The notes under the pieces are model-generated. The model saw only the letters and a program-made list of their open reading frames with translations. It was not told the origin of the DNA and did not search any database. From Hyphomicrobiaceae bacterium (GTDB taxonomy: Bacteria > Pseudomonadota > Alphaproteobacteria > Rhizobiales > Devosiaceae): a stretch of DNA of 64,000 bases. The stretch is from positions 1 to 64,000 of the forward strand of contig JACKJF010000005.1 of the NCBI GenBank assembly GCA_020638095.1. The letters run 5' to 3'. The stretch's first letter is position 1, and the number at the start of each line of letters is the position of its first letter. A program made the translations under genes and the position numbers. This document shows positions 31,866-38,082 of this stretch, in pieces.

Positions 31866-32666
31866 TCAGTTCGCGTTGTAGATTGCGCGCGCCGCCTGCA
31901 GCAGTTCTTCATTTGCCGCAACGATTACGTCGCCGCCCTGGTCCGCCGCTTTCCCTTCGACCGTCCTGAACATGCCACCGGCATTCTCGACAATGGGGAT
32001 AAGTGCGGCCACGTCGTACGGCTTCAGCCCCGCCTCAATCACCAGATCGATGTGGCCGGCAGCGACAAGACAGAACGCATAGCAGTCGCAGCCGTAACGG
32101 GCGAGCATGACCGCGCGCTCGAGTCTGAGATAGCGCGCTTCTGCGTCACCGGCAAAAAGGGCCGGCGTCGTGGTGAAGAGTATCGACTGACCGAGATCAC
32201 GTGTCGGGCGGGTCCGAAGCACGCGTATTTCTGTGCCCCGCTCCCAGGTTGACCGGCCGGGCATGCCAAGAAAGATTTCGCCGGTGAAGGGCTGGGACAT
32301 GAGGCCCGCGAAGTTTTTTCCCTCATATGAAACGCCGATCAGCGTACCCCAGACCGGCAGGCCGGCAATGAAGGCGCGGGTGCCGTCGATCGGATCGATG
32401 GTCCAGGTGAACGGACTGCCGGTTTCTTCGGAGGGGTGTTCCTCGCCCACGATATTGTGCTCGGGGAAGGCGGCGGCGATGACCTCGCGAATGGCGAGTT
32501 CGGCATTGCGGTCCGCCTCGGTGACCGGGTCGAAGCCCACCGCATATTTGTTGTCGACGGCAAGCGGGGTGCGGAAGCGGGGCAGGGTTTCCCTTGCGGC
32601 GGCGGCGGCGGCGGCGCGCAGGGTCGCCTCGACGCGGCTGAGGTCGAGATCGGCGGGAAGGGTCAT
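31866..32666 (-). CDS. hisN: Histidinol-phosphatase HisN (inositol monophosphatase family)
   Basis: A 266-residue magnesium-dependent phosphatase of the IMPase superfamily. Metal-binding motifs are GEEHPSEE and WTIDPIDGTRAF, and the C-terminal motif is KPYDVAALIPIVENAGG. In Rhizobiales and actinobacteria this subfamily dephosphorylates histidinol phosphate. It shares an ATGA overlap with the N-formylglutamate amidohydrolase gene upstream and the pair lies beside cpdR, a recurring arrangement in this order. Confidence 0.88.
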   Translation of the reverse strand: MTLPADLDLSRVEATLRAAAAAAARETLPRFRTPLAVDNKYAVGFDPVTEADRNAELAIREVIAAAFPEHNIVGEEHPSEETGSPFTWTIDPIDGTRAFIAGLPVWGTLIGVSYEGKNFAGLMSQPFTGEIFLGMPGRSTWERGTEIRVLRTRPTRDLGQSILFTTTPALFAGDAEARYLRLERAVMLARYGCDCYAFCLVAAGHIDLVIEAGLKPYDVAALIPIVENAGGMFRTVEGKAADQGGDVIVAANEELLQAARAIYNAN

Positions 32667-33544
32667 TCGGCGGCCAGCCGTCTCTGGGCGAAAAGCGAAT
32701 AGTCGAGCCGGGCCAGGTGATGAACCAGCCGGTCGATCACGTCCTTGACCGCGTTGAAATTGGCGGACTTCAGGCGCGTTTCCTCGCTCATGTAAAGGTG
32801 CCGGCTGATCTCGATCTGCAGTGCATGAATGGCGAAATCGGGCTTGCCGTAGGAGCGGGTGATGTAGCCTCCGGCATAGGGCTTGTTGCGCACCACGTTG
32901 AGTCCCGCCTCGGTGAAGAAGTTCTCGATCTCGTTGACAATGGCCCGATCGCAAGTCGCCCCGAAGCGATCGCCCAGAACTACGTCGGGTGTTGCACCCC
33001 GGGTCGTGCCGGTCAGTTTCGGCATGGAATGGCAATCAATCAGGATGGCAACGCCAAAGCGGTTGAGCGTTTCGCCGAGGAGCTTCTGCAGGGTTGCGTG
33101 ATAGGGCCGGTAAATGCCCTCGATGCGCATTTGCGCGTCGGCAAAACTTAGGGGTTCGCGATAAATCGGCTTGTTCTCGGCCACCACGCGGGCAAGGGTG
33201 CCAAGGCCGGCGGCAACGCGCGGCGAGTCGGTCTTGAGGTGCTGGGGCAGGGCCTCGTCGAACATTTGCGGGTCGAGTTCGTAGGGCTCGCGGTTGACGT
33301 CGAGATAGGCGCGCGGAAAGCAGGCCCTGAGGAACAGGGCACCCAGATTGGGCGCGCGGCCGAACAGTTCATCGACATGGGTATCTTCGGACTGACGGAT
33401 CGACATGCGGTCGAGCCGGATCAGCTTGAGGAAGCGATCGGGATAGTGGGTGCCGGAATGGGCGGAGTTGAAAACCAGCGGTGCGATCTGACGCCGCGGA
33501 CGCACGGTCTCGAATGCTGGAACGTCCTCGAAGTCCGATTGCAC
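32663..33544 (-). CDS. N-formylglutamate amidohydrolase family protein
   Basis: About 293 residues of the FGase family, zinc-dependent hydrolases that release formate from N-formylglutamate in one histidine-degradation route. Family features include LVFNSAHSGTHYP, the DTHVDELF motif, DVNREPYELDP and ILIDCHSMP. GTG 33544 is favoured because the GAGG ribosome site lies 8 bases before it; GTG 33550 would leave no spacing. The absence of hut genes nearby and the coupling with hisN make the true substrate uncertain. Confidence 0.85.
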   Translation of the reverse strand: MQSDFEDVPAFETVRPRRQIAPLVFNSAHSGTHYPDRFLKLIRLDRMSIRQSEDTHVDELFGRAPNLGALFLRACFPRAYLDVNREPYELDPQMFDEALPQHLKTDSPRVAAGLGTLARVVAENKPIYREPLSFADAQMRIEGIYRPYHATLQKLLGETLNRFGVAILIDCHSMPKLTGTTRGATPDVVLGDRFGATCDRAIVNEIENFFTEAGLNVVRNKPYAGGYITRSYGKPDFAIHALQIEISRHLYMSEETRLKSANFNAVKDVIDRLVHHLARLDYSLFAQRRLAAE

Positions 33545-33694
33545 GCCCACTCCCTCAGCGTTTGCGGTTGAAACAAATCAAATTGTTCTGAGGCCAGATT
33601 GCCTTGCGCCCCGGTCTTTGTCCATATATCTCCCTTAGTTGCGTGATTTGGCCAGCCGGGTCCACACCGGACCTTTGCGGCGCCGGAGGATGGA

Positions 33695-34168: not shown

Positions 34169-34243
34169 GGGCGTGTAGCTCAGCGGGAGAGCACTACGTT
34201 GACATCGTAGGGGTCACTGGTTCAATCCCAGTCACGCCCACCA
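34169..34243 (+). tRNA. tRNA-Val (anticodon GAC)
   Basis: A full cloverleaf: acceptor GGGCGTG pairs with CACGCCC, D arm GCTCAGCGGGAGAGC, anticodon stem CTACG/CGTAG with loop TTGACAT (anticodon GAC, valine), T arm ACTGG-TTCAATC-CCAGT, discriminator A and an encoded CCA. Confidence 0.97.
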
Positions 34244-34344: not shown

Positions 34345-34419
34345 GGGTGTGTAGCTCAGCGGGAGAGCACTGCCTTCACACGGCAGGGGTCACAGGTTCA
34401 ATCCCTGTCACACCCACCA
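34345..34419 (+). tRNA. tRNA-Val (anticodon CAC)
   Basis: Acceptor GGGTGTG pairs with CACACCC, D arm identical to the previous tRNA, anticodon stem CTGCC/GGCAG with loop TTCACAC (anticodon CAC, valine), T arm ACAGG-TTCAATC-CCTGT, encoded CCA. It lies 101 bases after the GAC gene, clearly a paralogue of it, and is probably co-transcribed. The accessory zone begins just downstream. Confidence 0.97.
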
Positions 34420-34541
34420 GACCCCTCCACCGCCTTTCATTTTGATCCCAGAGCGCTAATTCCTCTTTATTTTTCCCTATTTGGTGCCAAATGTGAGGCG
34501 CGAAGCGGTGTCGCCCGCGCGCTGACAGATGGGAGGACCAG

Positions 34542-35561
34542 ATGACTTTGCAGGGTACCAATAGTTCGGTGACGGGGGCCGGGATCCGTTTTGCCCTCGG
34601 AGCATCGGACGATCTTCTCATCGGCAAATCGGGTTTCGTGATGAGCACCGACGTGGTGGCTGTTACGGCCACGGGCAGCGGGCAAGTCCTCAGAATATTC
34701 GGGACCGTTGCCGGCAACACGCTTGCCCTGCAGATTGGCGACAATGCCTCCGTTGATGCGTTTTTCAATGTTCTGATTGGCTCCCAAGGCAGTTTGATCG
34801 GGGGAAGCGGGGCGGCTTTCGAATTGCACGCCAGCAGTTCCACCATCGAAAACCGGGGGGAGATCTATGGTGCGTCTGGCATCGATATCCAGGCGACATC
34901 CGCCGTGCCAAGCCTTGGAACCACGGTCACCAATTCCGGACTCATCGACGTTTTCGGCACCGGGTTCAAGATCAGAGGCGATGAGGATCTGACTTTGACA
35001 AATTCCGGAACCATTCGGTCCGGATCCGGGCACGCCTTCGATGGCGGGGGCAACCTTGGCGATATGACCATCCTGAATTCGGGTCTCATGGATGGTGACG
35101 TCCTCCTGGCGGGTGGAAAAGATGCCTATATCGCTTCTGGCAACGGCCGCGCGACCGGGACAGTATTCGGGCAGGCTGGCAATGACACGCTGACGGGTGG
35201 CAAGTTCGCAGATGATTTCGAGGGGGCACAGGGCAACGACGTGCTGCGCGGCAATGGTGGCAATGACATCTTGAACGGCGGCAACGGCAAGAACAAACTG
35301 TTCGGCGGAGCCGGCAAAGATGCCTTCACGTTCAATTTCACCGCGAGCGGCGAGGGCAAGACGCGGGTCATGGATTTTCAGGACGGTGCCGACAAGCTCG
35401 ATTTTTCAGCCTATCACGTGACCCGGGCTCAGGTCTTGGCCGCCGCCTCAAATGTCGGTACCGGACTTGAAATCGACATGGCGGCCCTGGGGAGCAGCGG
35501 CAAAGTCATCATCGACAATTTCCACAAGTCCCAATTGGGCGGCGGTGACCTGATCCTCTAG
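34542..35561 (+). CDS. RTX-like calcium-binding repeat protein
   Basis: A 339-residue protein with no signal peptide. Residues 1-195 show loosely repeating short strands with NSG and NxG turns (ENRGEIYGASGIDIQ, VTNSGLIDVFGTGFKI, LTNSGTIRSGSG), like a parallel beta-helix. Residues ~205-265 hold RTX nonapeptide repeats of the form GGxGxD (AGNDTLTGG, QGNDVLRGNGGNDILNGG, GGAGKDAF). The C-terminus ends in a short hydrophobic run like substrates of type I secretion. A GGGAGG ribosome site precedes the ATG. No secretion genes are nearby. Function unknown. Confidence 0.85.
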   Translation: MTLQGTNSSVTGAGIRFALGASDDLLIGKSGFVMSTDVVAVTATGSGQVLRIFGTVAGNTLALQIGDNASVDAFFNVLIGSQGSLIGGSGAAFELHASSSTIENRGEIYGASGIDIQATSAVPSLGTTVTNSGLIDVFGTGFKIRGDEDLTLTNSGTIRSGSGHAFDGGGNLGDMTILNSGLMDGDVLLAGGKDAYIASGNGRATGTVFGQAGNDTLTGGKFADDFEGAQGNDVLRGNGGNDILNGGNGKNKLFGGAGKDAFTFNFTASGEGKTRVMDFQDGADKLDFSAYHVTRAQVLAAASNVGTGLEIDMAALGSSGKVIIDNFHKSQLGGGDLIL

Positions 35562-35578
35562 GCAATTGCGCGGCGGCT

Positions 35579-36052
35579 GTGCCTCTTTTTTGCCGCGTCG
35601 CGCAGCCTGATCCGCTTGGCCTCGAAGCGGGCATCTCACGCTATGCCTATGTGTTGAATGATCCGCTTCAAAAGGTGGACTCGAAAGGGATGTATGTGAA
35701 CCCGACCGAGAGTCTCACGGCTCAAAACCATCTTAAGTATTCTGTGTCAGCGTCGACCGTGGCTCCCAGCGAAATTGATGTAGCGATGTGTCGGCCAGCC
35801 AACGACAACGCTGAAGCTGTGCGTGTTGCGGAACTGAGCTACAGCGATACCGTTTTGGGGCATGCTGACCGTCCGTATATTTCTACGTTGCTCGCACTTG
35901 AGATCATAGGCACAGGGACGGGGGTTCCAGACCCGGGCGGAACGGGTGGCTTGCGTTTTGACGTTCCTGGCACCTTCAATGGAAGTTCCGGGGTGTTTCA
36001 ACTCGTGGTGGCCCCGGGTGACAGGATTGTACATCTTCAATTTGGGCACTAG
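35579..36052 (+). pseudogene. Orphan RHS C-terminal fragment 1 (polymorphic-toxin tip)
   Basis: The frame starts abruptly, and only the last part of an RHS core is left: QPDPLGLEAGISRYAYVLNDP then LQKVDSKGMY. After this junction comes a ~120-residue unique tip ending FNGSSGVFQLVVAPGDRIVHLQFGH. The core-plus-variable-tip architecture is that of RHS polymorphic toxins, but the thousand-residue shell is missing, so it cannot be delivered on its own. It could be a displaced orphan module that recombines into a full rhs gene elsewhere, or a relic. Tip activity is not recognised. Confidence 0.7.
35603..35680 (+). repeat. RHS core repeat, copy 1
   Basis: A 78-base direct repeat of 36686-36763 (9 differences by eye, 69/78 identical), encoding the end of the RHS core. 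It could serve as a recombination site between tip modules. Confidence 0.85.
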
Positions 36053-36070
36053 TGATGAGAAGGTGCGGTC

Positions 36071-36532
36071 GTGAAGCTAAAACTGGACCAACGAATTTGG
36101 GAAAAACCGGAAGCGACAGTCAGGTATGTCGAAGAAGATTTTTCGATAAATTCCGAGAACATAGCAGGTGACGCATATTTCACCTTAATGATTAGAGACC
36201 TGAGTATTGACTTCAATGAACTTGGATATTTCACTTCAATTTGGGGGTTCTGCCCAAGAAACTCGTGGAAAGCAAGCGTGGTCAATCAGCCGCGTTTTGA
36301 CGATTGCCTTGTTTCGCTTTCGAGCACAATGGGTCTGAAAAAGAACGTTGGATGGCCTCTAGTAAATTTCAGAGATTCGGACGTAGTTTTTGACGTCAAA
36401 AGTGGCTGGCTAAGAATTCAAGATGCCCAGCACGAAGCTACTCGCTTTGGGAGTCCTTCACCGAACGTCGTCTTTGGGGTTACCCCGGGTGGGGAACTTT
36501 GCGAAGTCTATTTGCATCCCAAGCTTGTCTGA
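36071..36532 (+). CDS. Putative immunity protein for RHS fragment 1
   Basis: A 153-residue acidic soluble protein (MKLKLDQRIWEKPEATVRYV...), GTG start with AAGG before it, beginning 18 bases after the toxin-like fragment. Position and size fit an immunity gene, and the composition is clearly more AT-rich than the flanking chromosome. I do not recognise the family; one could look for a cyclophilin- or DUF-type immunity fold. The function is inferred from place only. Confidence 0.55.
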   Translation: MKLKLDQRIWEKPEATVRYVEEDFSINSENIAGDAYFTLMIRDLSIDFNELGYFTSIWGFCPRNSWKASVVNQPRFDDCLVSLSSTMGLKKNVGWPLVNFRDSDVVFDVKSGWLRIQDAQHEATRFGSPSPNVVFGVTPGGELCEVYLHPKLV

Positions 36533-36613
36533 CACCCACAAGTTCGCCTGGTGACAATTGATCGGTCCGCCGGAGCAGCGCGTTCGACGGACCACTTGCA
36601 AGTCCCCGGCTAA

Positions 36614-36957
36614 CGCTTTCCGGAAGAGTCTGGCATCTACTACAATTGGCACCGGCAATACGACCCGAAAACAGGCCGCTACACTCAGCCCGATCCGCTC
36701 GGTCTCGGGGCAGGCATCTCCCGCTATGCCTATGTGACGAATGATCCGCTTCAAAAGGTGGACCCGGGCGGGTTGGCGACCACCAAGAGCTTTCCTTACG
36801 CCTGCGTAGCACTTGGGTTGGATCCCACCGAAGCAAGCGACGCCCTCCACGATGCCAAAAAAACGCTGGGCTGCGCCCAAATGATAACTGTACCTTCGAT
36901 CTGGAAACAGGTGATATTTACTTCGGCGACGAGTGCATTGGAAACTTGAACGACTAG
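36614..36957 (+). pseudogene. Orphan RHS C-terminal fragment 2 with a -1 shift at an A7 run
   Basis: After an in-frame TAA (36611-36613) the frame reads RFPEESGIYYNWHRQYD then PKTGRYTQPDPLGLGAGISR, a longer piece of the RHS core than in fragment 1, then a short tip starting LATTKSFPYACVALGLDP. In this frame translation ends at 36949. A -1 slip at the seven-A run near 36857-36863 instead gives KKNAGLRPNDNCTFDLETGD then IYFGDECIGNLND and a stop at 36955-36957; this tail resembles many RHS toxin ends. Either programmed slippage, a single-base deletion or a sequencing error explains it. Confidence 0.7.
36686..36763 (+). repeat. RHS core repeat, copy 2
   Basis: Second copy of the 78-base repeat at 35603-35680, inside RHS fragment 2. 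Confidence 0.85.
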
Positions 36958-36971
36958 TGGGGAAAATCTGA

Positions 36972-37391
36972 ATGAATGTGAAGGTGAGCGCTCGGTTTTG
37001 GGGATTCGAATCGAGCATTCTTGAGCTGGCAAGGAAATTTGGAAATGATCTCGTATTGAGCCGTCCAATAATAAAGGCAGGCTCAGAGAATTTGTACTAC
37101 ACTTGTACAGTTGATTTCGAAGCAGAAAACACGCTTAAGTCCGTTGATATAGTTGATGATTTATATGACAGAATTTGCAGTAGTCATGATGCTCTAGATT
37201 TGATTCTTGAAAAAAAAGTGAGTGCCGAAATCTGGGTAGTGGCATTCGGCGAGCCCTGTGACCTTGATGGAAGAATTTCTGATGCCCTAATGTCCAAAAT
37301 TCAAAACGCTCGAGTTTCCCTGTTCGTGGAAAACTATCCACTCTCCGGAAACAAAAATCCCAGCGGAAGTTATGTGGTGCAATTCGAATGA
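36972..37391 (+). CDS. Putative immunity protein for RHS fragment 2
   Basis: A 139-residue protein (MNVKVSARFWGFESSILELA...) with a GGGGA ribosome site, beginning 14 bases after the shifted stop of fragment 2. It is AT-rich with codons such as ATA and TTA that the core genes avoid. There is a faint likeness to DUF4279-type immunity proteins (short strands, a two-layer fold with an acidic C-terminal strand pair), which I cannot confirm. Immunity role is inferred from position. Confidence 0.55.
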   Translation: MNVKVSARFWGFESSILELARKFGNDLVLSRPIIKAGSENLYYTCTVDFEAENTLKSVDIVDDLYDRICSSHDALDLILEKKVSAEIWVVAFGEPCDLDGRISDALMSKIQNARVSLFVENYPLSGNKNPSGSYVVQFE

Positions 37392-37430
37392 CTCTACCAA
37401 TCTAATCTGTTGCGTTTATGGGAGAGTGAT

Positions 37431-37778
37431 ATGAGACGAGTTTTTTTAGCTGGTGGACCGATGGAGGATTCGGTGGTGCGGTCTTGGCTTGCTGCAGGCG
37501 CAGTTTGGGCCATTGACATTCCAACCAACAGACAAATTGCGGAAGTGCATTGGCAATCAAGTTCCGCGAACCTGACATTGTTCTACTACCCATTGATGGA
37601 CAACGACGACGAACAGCTTGTTACGGCGCTGGATGATCTGCTCGAACATAACCCGGATTGTTTGGAAATCGTAGTATGTGGCTTTCGGGACGCTGAAGCT
37701 GAAAGGCAGCACTTTGCGCAACGAAAGTTTGCCTTCGAAAAGTGCGAAGGTGGGTGCAGCCAATACAAACGGACTTGA
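37431..37778 (+). CDS. Small unknown protein at the end of the RHS zone
   Basis: A 115-residue soluble protein (MRRVFLAGGPMEDSVVRSWL...) with a GGGAGAG ribosome site, 39 bases after the previous gene. It has no signal or membrane segment. Acidic centre (DNDDEQLVTALDDLLEHNP) and a Cys/Lys-rich end. No family recognised. It may be a second immunity gene or part of a further lost module. Confidence 0.5.
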   Translation: MRRVFLAGGPMEDSVVRSWLAAGAVWAIDIPTNRQIAEVHWQSSSANLTLFYYPLMDNDDEQLVTALDDLLEHNPDCLEIVVCGFRDAEAERQHFAQRKFAFEKCEGGCSQYKRT

Positions 37779-38082
37779 TTTGAGCTCGTTGGAAATCCGG
37801 GATGCGTCCTGTGGTTGTCCGCGTGCGTGGTGCAATTTGCCGGCGCGTTCGGAGTAATCCTGACGGCGTCGAGGTTTGCGATCGAGGTGGAGTTTGCCGG
37901 TTTCAATGGCTGATGGATGAGGCTCCGGGTCACGGTCTCCGCCGAGATCGCTGGTTACGACATGGCCGCTTGCCGCTTTCGCTCACCTTAGCGCTTGTCA
38001 TAAATCATTCGTAAAACTAGCATCTGGTCGGCCCAACCTTGGTCCCATGCGACCGGGGGGCCTCAATCAGGGAAGAGAAACC
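37779..38082. other. Gene-free boundary of the accessory zone
   Basis: 304 bases. No reading frame with coding character. The left two thirds look like decayed sequence; the right third holds the promoter and leader of the ABC importer. Confidence 0.5.
37995..38023 (+). promoter_or_regulatory. Sigma-70-type promoter of the ABC importer operon
   Basis: TTGTCA (37995-38000) and TAGCAT (38018-38023) with a 17-base spacer, 60 bases before the substrate-binding protein start. Confidence 0.6.

Follow-up and report, generated by a model that had tools for sequence, protein, structure and literature searches.

Candidate orphan Rhs toxin-tip/immunity modules in a variable zone behind a tRNA-Val gene of a Devosiaceae-type alphaproteobacterium

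We analyzed positions 1 to 64,000 of contig JACKJF010000005.1 (Hyphomicrobiaceae bacterium, assembly GCA_020638095.1); this whole 64-kb stretch is called the window here. Behind two tRNA-Val genes and a gene for an RTX-type protein, we found two ends of Rhs cores that lack the rest of an rhs gene. Each runs into its own C-terminal tip and is followed by a small gene in the position of an immunity gene (imm1 and imm2). A third small gene (imm3) has no tip before it. The features that concern us are as follows.

35579..36052, + strand: module 1, comprising a headless Rhs core end (up to about 35686) and tip 1; TIGR03696, E = 7.6e-7; the only start codon is a GTG
36071..36532, + strand: imm1, which occupies the immunity position of module 1; GTG at 36071, 18 bases past the tip 1 stop
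36614..36949, + strand: module 2, comprising a headless Rhs core end (up to about 36775) and the first part of tip 2; TIGR03696, E = 7.1e-17
36877..36957, + strand: C terminus of tip 2, in a frame other than that of the core; its translation matches the Agrobacterium protein that the first part also matches
36972..37391, + strand: imm2, which occupies the immunity position of module 2; ATG, 14 bases past the stop of the tip 2 C terminus
37431..37778, + strand: imm3, possible immunity gene without a tip; open, with GGGAGAG before its ATG

Two headless Rhs core ends and three small genes

Both core ends matched the Rhs model TIGR03696. The match of core 2 (open reading frame [ORF] 36629-36949) reached 61.7 bits, above the model cut-off of 32.5 bits, and that of core 1 (ORF 35579-36052) reached 29.6 bits. 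The cores have 101 nucleotides in common at 82% identity (35592-35692 and 36675-36775), and the sequences then diverge into unrelated tips. This agrees with the initial annotation, which had described two headless RHS core ends with unrelated tips. The core repeat that it had reported is also present, at the length given above and not at 78 bases. The reading frames are open only 10 and 5 codons ahead of the first recognizable core residues of modules 1 and 2, respectively. We found no YD-repeat shell ahead of the cores (no RHS_repeat match in the window ORFs scanned) and, in the same ORFs, no PAAR-like domain (PF13665) ahead of the tips. A tblastn search of the 64 kb with three Rhs proteins of family genomes (E ≤ 1) returned only these two places. 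We thus found no main rhs shell gene in the window, in agreement with its claimed absence.

The three small genes are open over 115 to 153 codons. By eye, ribosome-site-like stretches precede all three, most clearly imm1 and imm3, and none was seen before the tips. The small genes had been said to follow the tips at 14 to 18 bases; we found 18 bases for imm1 and 14 for imm2, the latter counted from the out-of-frame C terminus of tip 2. A check of the small genes against immunity families had been proposed, and no immunity profile matched in scans of Pfam, NCBIfam, PADLOC, and PHROGs. For imm3, no family scored above cut-off, and a plasmid collection of 72,556 records gave no match.

Tips and small genes of the two modules

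The frame of module 2 opens behind a stop and has its first start codon within the core. This frame runs to 36949, and the C terminus of tip 2, in another frame, ends at 36957; the break may be real or may reflect an assembly error. We searched the two pieces of tip 2 separately in the plasmid collection. The first part matched WP_137395847.1 of Agrobacterium larrymoorei (65.5% over 29 amino acids, E = 5e-3), and the C terminus matched the same protein (62.5% over 24 amino acids, E = 0.1). The relation is credible because both pieces match adjacent parts of one protein, in order, among all of these records. WP_137395847.1 is a Tox-PAAR-like protein of 196 amino acids (PF13665, E = 2.6e-18), and the likeness to tip 2 lies at its C terminus. 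In its locus, VgrG is followed in turn by DUF2169, the PAAR-tip protein, two small genes, and an Rhs/TNT protein. Behind the PAAR-tip pair, this plasmid (L181) carries an Rhs protein with a TNT-family C terminus (PF14021) and a further Rhs-core gene.

We then compared imm1 to imm3 with the two A. larrymoorei small genes. The gene right after the tip resembled imm2 (26% over 119 positions; pairwise BLASTP, E = 2e-6), with a z score of 10.4 and 0 of 1,000 shuffles. The other five pairings gave z scores of -1.1 to 1.9. A toxin-immunity pair common to different carriers would be the best account of this position and likeness. Used as a query, the A. larrymoorei gene found only itself among the plasmids. 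The Agrobacterium tip domain was found in 0 of 297 genomes of an Agrobacterium-centered family set, in 0 of 4 handles, in no phage, and among the plasmids only as itself. Three of 397 genomes of the order gave matches at E = 0.003 to 0.006, and none was accepted, because two were located within a longer protein, over 400 residues in, and the third was in an unlike frame. A word search of 5.8 billion proteins with imm2 returned one protein, seemingly of the same organism. Judged by these searches, the tip 2/imm2 pair appears to be rare.

No Pfam or NCBIfam model covers these parts in the relatives of tip 2 and imm2. We considered Ntox33 for tip 2 and rejected it: neither piece matched at E ≤ 10, the Agrobacterium relative gave no match at E ≤ 1, and none of the 136 genomes of the family set described below matched. 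DUF4279 is given as the likely immunity protein of an Rhs-Ntox33 protein in Salmonella (PMC13304343). By eye, imm2 resembles DUF4279. A Pfam search at E ≤ 1 gave no match for imm2, DUF4279 included. In hhalign, imm2 against seven DUF4279 fragments gave a probability of 6% and a P value of 0.006 over 119 columns, compared with P values of 0.16 to 0.63 for eight controls. The two have a ferredoxin-like fold in common in a model of middling confidence. Membership of imm2 in DUF4279 may be taken as a lead only.

In module 1, the frame of tip 1 is open to its end. Its sole start is GTG 35579, 18 bases past the stop of the RTX gene, and by eye no ribosome site was seen before it. Searches of Pfam, PADLOC, PHROGs, and PDB sequences gave no family for tip 1, and NCBIfam matched the core only. 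We found no relatives of tip 1 in plasmids or in the 397 genomes of the order, and none was confirmed in viral contigs. Weak matches outside the core in three genomes (G005, G027, and G124; E = 0.0007 to 0.01) were taken for chance.

imm1 has distant relatives in the Firmicutes Listeria, Lactiplantibacillus, Enterococcus, and Amphibacillus (21 to 28% identity). None of these matches carries a believable named function. Two proteins that match the imm1-family profile, P0010 and P0013, are publicly named 30S ribosomal protein S2 and TilS, which are wrong names or reflect fused fragments. The Lactiplantibacillus relative is surrounded by small genes and IS30 elements, with a type VII secretion gene (EssB/YukC) about 4.6 kb away, and the Listeria relative lies in a row of small genes flanked by metabolic genes. 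Orphan immunity genes of type VII secretion system toxins are frequent in Listeria (PMC10327511); the part of that paper used here does not name the site of the imm1 relative. We made 32 comparisons of window genes with neighbors of the Firmicutes relatives, and the genes preceding these relatives had no likeness to tip 1. In the same comparisons, imm3 gave a z score of 3.5 against a Listeria neighbor of 209 amino acids (5 of 500 shuffles), and imm2 gave z scores of 2.0 to 2.3 against two others. Since we found no relatives of tip 1 and the preceding genes are unlike it, the pairing in module 1 rests on position. A word search of the 5.8 billion proteins with imm1 returned one protein (P0001), seemingly of the same organism. 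The P0001 contig, of 998 bases, encodes an identical C-terminal part of imm1, and the locus was seemingly sequenced a second time.

Two of the records encountered have titles that seem not to fit their content. NZ_LR134402.1 (L142), titled Listeria monocytogenes plasmid 5 (569 kb), carries iol metabolic genes, which look chromosomal. JAHREI010000010.1 (L007) has Bacillus subtilis SK6B4 in its title and contains an alphaproteobacterial transporter operon similar to the one in Pseudochrobactrum; this genome is probably mislabeled or mixed.

The zone behind the tRNA-Val genes and its relatives

The two tRNA-Val genes and the RTX-like gene ahead of the modules, all claimed by the initial annotation, are present:

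34169..34243, + strand: tRNA-Val(GAC), found by ARAGORN
34345..34419, + strand: tRNA-Val(CAC), found by ARAGORN; the variable zone starts behind it, with a conserved upstream side and a downstream side that is not conserved
34542..35561, + strand: RTX-type calcium-binding repeat protein, 339 amino acids, PF00353 at E = 6.8e-8; outside the modules

The sliding-window check of GC content that had been suggested identified the zone of the modules as the GC-poorest part of the 64 kb. The minimum is the 2.3-kb interval from 35496 (GC, 0.501), and the drop spans 35.5 to 37.8 kb. The mean over the window is 0.615 (standard deviation, 0.023), and the lowest 2.3-kb value outside this zone is 0.579. imm2 has the lowest composition (GC, 0.421; GC at third codon positions [GC3], 0.407), and core 2 is close to normal (GC, 0.593). 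The RTX gene is nearer normal (GC, 0.583; GC3, 0.697), and thus the shift does not start at the tRNA genes. The change in GC and codon use had been placed directly after them; instead, GC falls only downstream of the RTX gene, about 1.2 kb beyond the tRNAs.

Our comparison genomes were a family set of 136 genomes centered on a Devosia genome (G001 = L065), which we read as Devosiaceae. The gene beside the tRNAs (32663-33550), putatively N-formylglutamate amidohydrolase-like, matched in 128 of the 136, most closely in G108 (69% identity). The response regulator adjoining the tRNAs is present in 33 of 34 loci examined, with 90 to 97% identity in the 31 set loci. From these two genes, we assign the window to the Devosiaceae or to a group next to them. 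We compared the site by tblastx (E ≤ 1e-6), covering the downstream side up to 3.66 kb. Four of 20 stretches, which contained one or no tRNA of the pair, were dropped, leaving 16 relatives plus the window. Upstream of the tRNA pair, we found likeness in all 136 pairs. Downstream, 69 of the 120 pairs of relatives had something in common, and the window had likeness with 0 of the 16 relatives. Because the upstream side is conserved and the downstream side is unlike that of the relatives, the zone behind tRNA-Val(CAC) is variable. The modules sit in this variable zone of a Devosiaceae-type chromosome. One of the 16 relatives (G080, stretch L160) has the tRNA pair inverted, so that its downstream side is not strictly equivalent. 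In the nearest relative, G108, the 3 kb behind the tRNAs is also GC poor (0.531). Among the 29 loci with both tRNAs, the pair is inverted relative to the response regulator in four (L091, L092, L103, and L111); L160 covers the L091 site at greater length.

Recent integration driven by the tRNA was considered and set aside. The 3' end of tRNA-Val(CAC) has no further copy within the window except in the neighboring tRNA-Val(GAC). No integrase was found among the seven ORFs of 34.5 to 37.8 kb, with the rest of the window scanned in five long ORFs only. In G132, a phage integrase gene lies directly behind tRNA-Val(CAC) (L165:1875-2864; PF00589, E = 9.5e-23). The same tRNA therefore serves as an insertion site in the family, and tRNA-driven integration keeps some standing.

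TIGR03696 matched in 7 of the 136 set genomes, 6 of them above the cut-off, and the closest core was that of G088 (73% over 132 nucleotides). There were 20 matches, 13 of which lie in open frames of fewer than 500 amino acids; two of the 13 together make up a single broken module, and one is situated about 0.1 kb from the end of its contig. At 16 of the 20 places, an ORF of at least 60 amino acids starts -16 to +18 nucleotides from the tip stop (one is the other half of the broken module); the scan took the first ORF from -20 onward, so small spacings are favored. These matches indicate that both shells and headless modules exist in the set. G061, G101, G118, and other set genomes have, like the window, a cut core, a tip, and a small gene, and the GC content of the modules in these three (0.42 to 0.50) is likewise low. 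Unlike those of the window, the set's headless modules have other tips and small genes, and some lie on the same contig as a full rhs gene. We found no match of imm1 to imm3 to the set's Rhs loci and no donor of the two modules in the set. A lack of rhs shells in the genome and its relatives, with the small genes kept where there is no RHS fragment, had been named as speaking against displaced modules. Shells, as noted, exist in the family. A tblastn search with imm1 to imm3 of the set's stretches, which are parts of genomes, returned nothing at E ≤ 0.01, and we found no sister strain.

Contig 484 of G061 (L144), which has an 894-codon rhs gene, also bears a row of three headless Rhs tip modules and small genes; this contig may be foreign to its bin. 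VgrG scored above cut-off in 3 of the 136 set genomes and matched at E ≤ 0.001 in 6. Among the seven Rhs-core genomes, G102 has VgrG above cut-off and G089 has a weak match. By these counts, delivery by a type VI secretion system is not the rule in the set.

Displaced modules, rival explanations, and meaning

Displaced tip and immunity genes are known from other bacteria. The orphan rhs-CT/rhsI modules known from Salmonella LT2 and further Enterobacteriaceae (PMC3967940) consist, as here, of a displaced core end, a tip, and an adjoining small gene. Their core fragment lacks the usual start signals, as does that of module 2, and recombination with the main rhs gene brought one such tip into use. 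In Salmonella, the main rhs gene lies upstream, with 522 bp at 95% identity in common, whereas here we found no such gene in the 64 kb, and tip 2 is out of frame. The orphan cdiA-CT/cdiI modules (PMC3150448) are likewise arrays of tip and immunity fragments, the tips mostly without a start and the orphan immunity genes able to be expressed; their core is that of CdiA (VENN), and that of the window is Rhs. One orphan immunity gene was shown to be expressed in these precedents (PMC3967940, PMC3150448). A further parallel is given by the vgrG-DUF2169-PAAR-like effector-immunity loci of Agrobacterium (PMC8546570); in the A. larrymoorei locus analyzed here, the relatives of tip 2 and imm2 stand side by side. 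There the carrier is Tox-PAAR-like and the tip is in frame, whereas in the window the carrier is an Rhs core and the tip is out of frame.

We consider it probable (about 0.7) that the locus holds two orphan Rhs C-terminal toxin-tip/immunity modules in a variable zone, with small genes that protect against neighbors' tips. The initial annotation had likewise proposed displaced orphan cassettes. The headless cores, the unrelated tips, the adjoining small genes, the lack of a shell in the window, and the pair of module 2 tip and neighbor on another carrier in Agrobacterium are consistent with this. The GC minimum, the lack of downstream likeness to the 16 relatives, the headless modules elsewhere in the set, and the ribosome-site-like stretches seen before the small genes and not before the tips also speak for it. 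The modules would have been acquired by horizontal transfer. The tips would not be made here as delivered toxins, since no start precedes the core of module 2, whose tip is out of frame, and the single GTG of module 1 is unconvincing. The small genes may be made and may protect against neighbors bearing the same tips on intact carriers, which would be their present use. Should the genome contain a full rhs gene, tip 1 could also serve as a reserve, to be used once its core has recombined into that gene. imm2 is open while its toxin half is out of frame. The modules are probably kept for immunity.

Several observations weigh against orphan immunity modules. Core 1 scores below the TIGR03696 cut-off, and its end, read from the sequence, departs from the usual DPxGL. 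No small gene matched an immunity profile. No main rhs gene with a matching core was found in a search that covered the 64 kb. The matches of tip 2 are singly weak, and imm2 as a query misses the A. larrymoorei gene (nothing in plasmids at E ≤ 0.1 and no match to it among 189 loci at E ≤ 0.01). Tip 1 and imm3 appear to have no relatives, and module 1 rests on position.

The locus could instead be debris that presently serves no function, left over from an rhs locus in decay or from imported DNA, in which the open small genes arrived recently and have yet to decay. The missing starts of module 2, the frame break in tip 2, and the lack of a shell in the 64 kb fit such decay. Three small genes that are all still open and preceded by ribosome-site-like stretches do not, nor does a tip 1 that is open to its end, and we regard debris as unlikely. 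Chance neighborhood, with small genes unrelated to the tips, would explain why no immunity family matched and why imm1 has its relatives among Firmicutes small genes without known function. The relation of imm2 to the gene after the Agrobacterium tip argues against it, for imm2 and not for imm1 or imm3, and we give chance hardly any weight.

A Salmonella orphan rhs gene has been reported as an intracellular toxin-antitoxin pair (PMC7043789), and tip 1 might similarly be made from its GTG and act inside the cell with imm1. The position of this GTG just past the RTX stop and the frame open up to imm1 would allow it. However, no ribosome site was seen before the GTG, and the first 36 residues are mostly Rhs core and not a natural start, which makes such a pair very improbable.

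Orphan Rhs modules, the reading that we prefer for this locus, are already a known kind, and their occurrence in a Devosiaceae-type alphaproteobacterium is an extension. By title and abstract, our literature search gave no paper on such modules in this group, which is no proof of absence. Rhs effectors and orphan immunity genes are described in agrobacteria, also Hyphomicrobiales (PMC8546570). The remark that orphan tips are poorly described in Hyphomicrobiales is limited by these agrobacterial descriptions. The A. larrymoorei comparison also links a tip on an Rhs core, and the gene next to it, to the tip of a PAAR-like effector and its neighbor. If confirmed, this would provide a small toxin-immunity pair and a case of immunity outlasting its toxin.

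A further proposal, which in our judgment could go either way, concerns the tip 2/imm2 and A. larrymoorei pairs. They may represent an undescribed toxin domain of about 55 to 60 residues with its own immunity family, which would move as a unit between PAAR-like (vgrG locus) and Rhs carriers across families of the Hyphomicrobiales and would survive in the window only as its immunity half.

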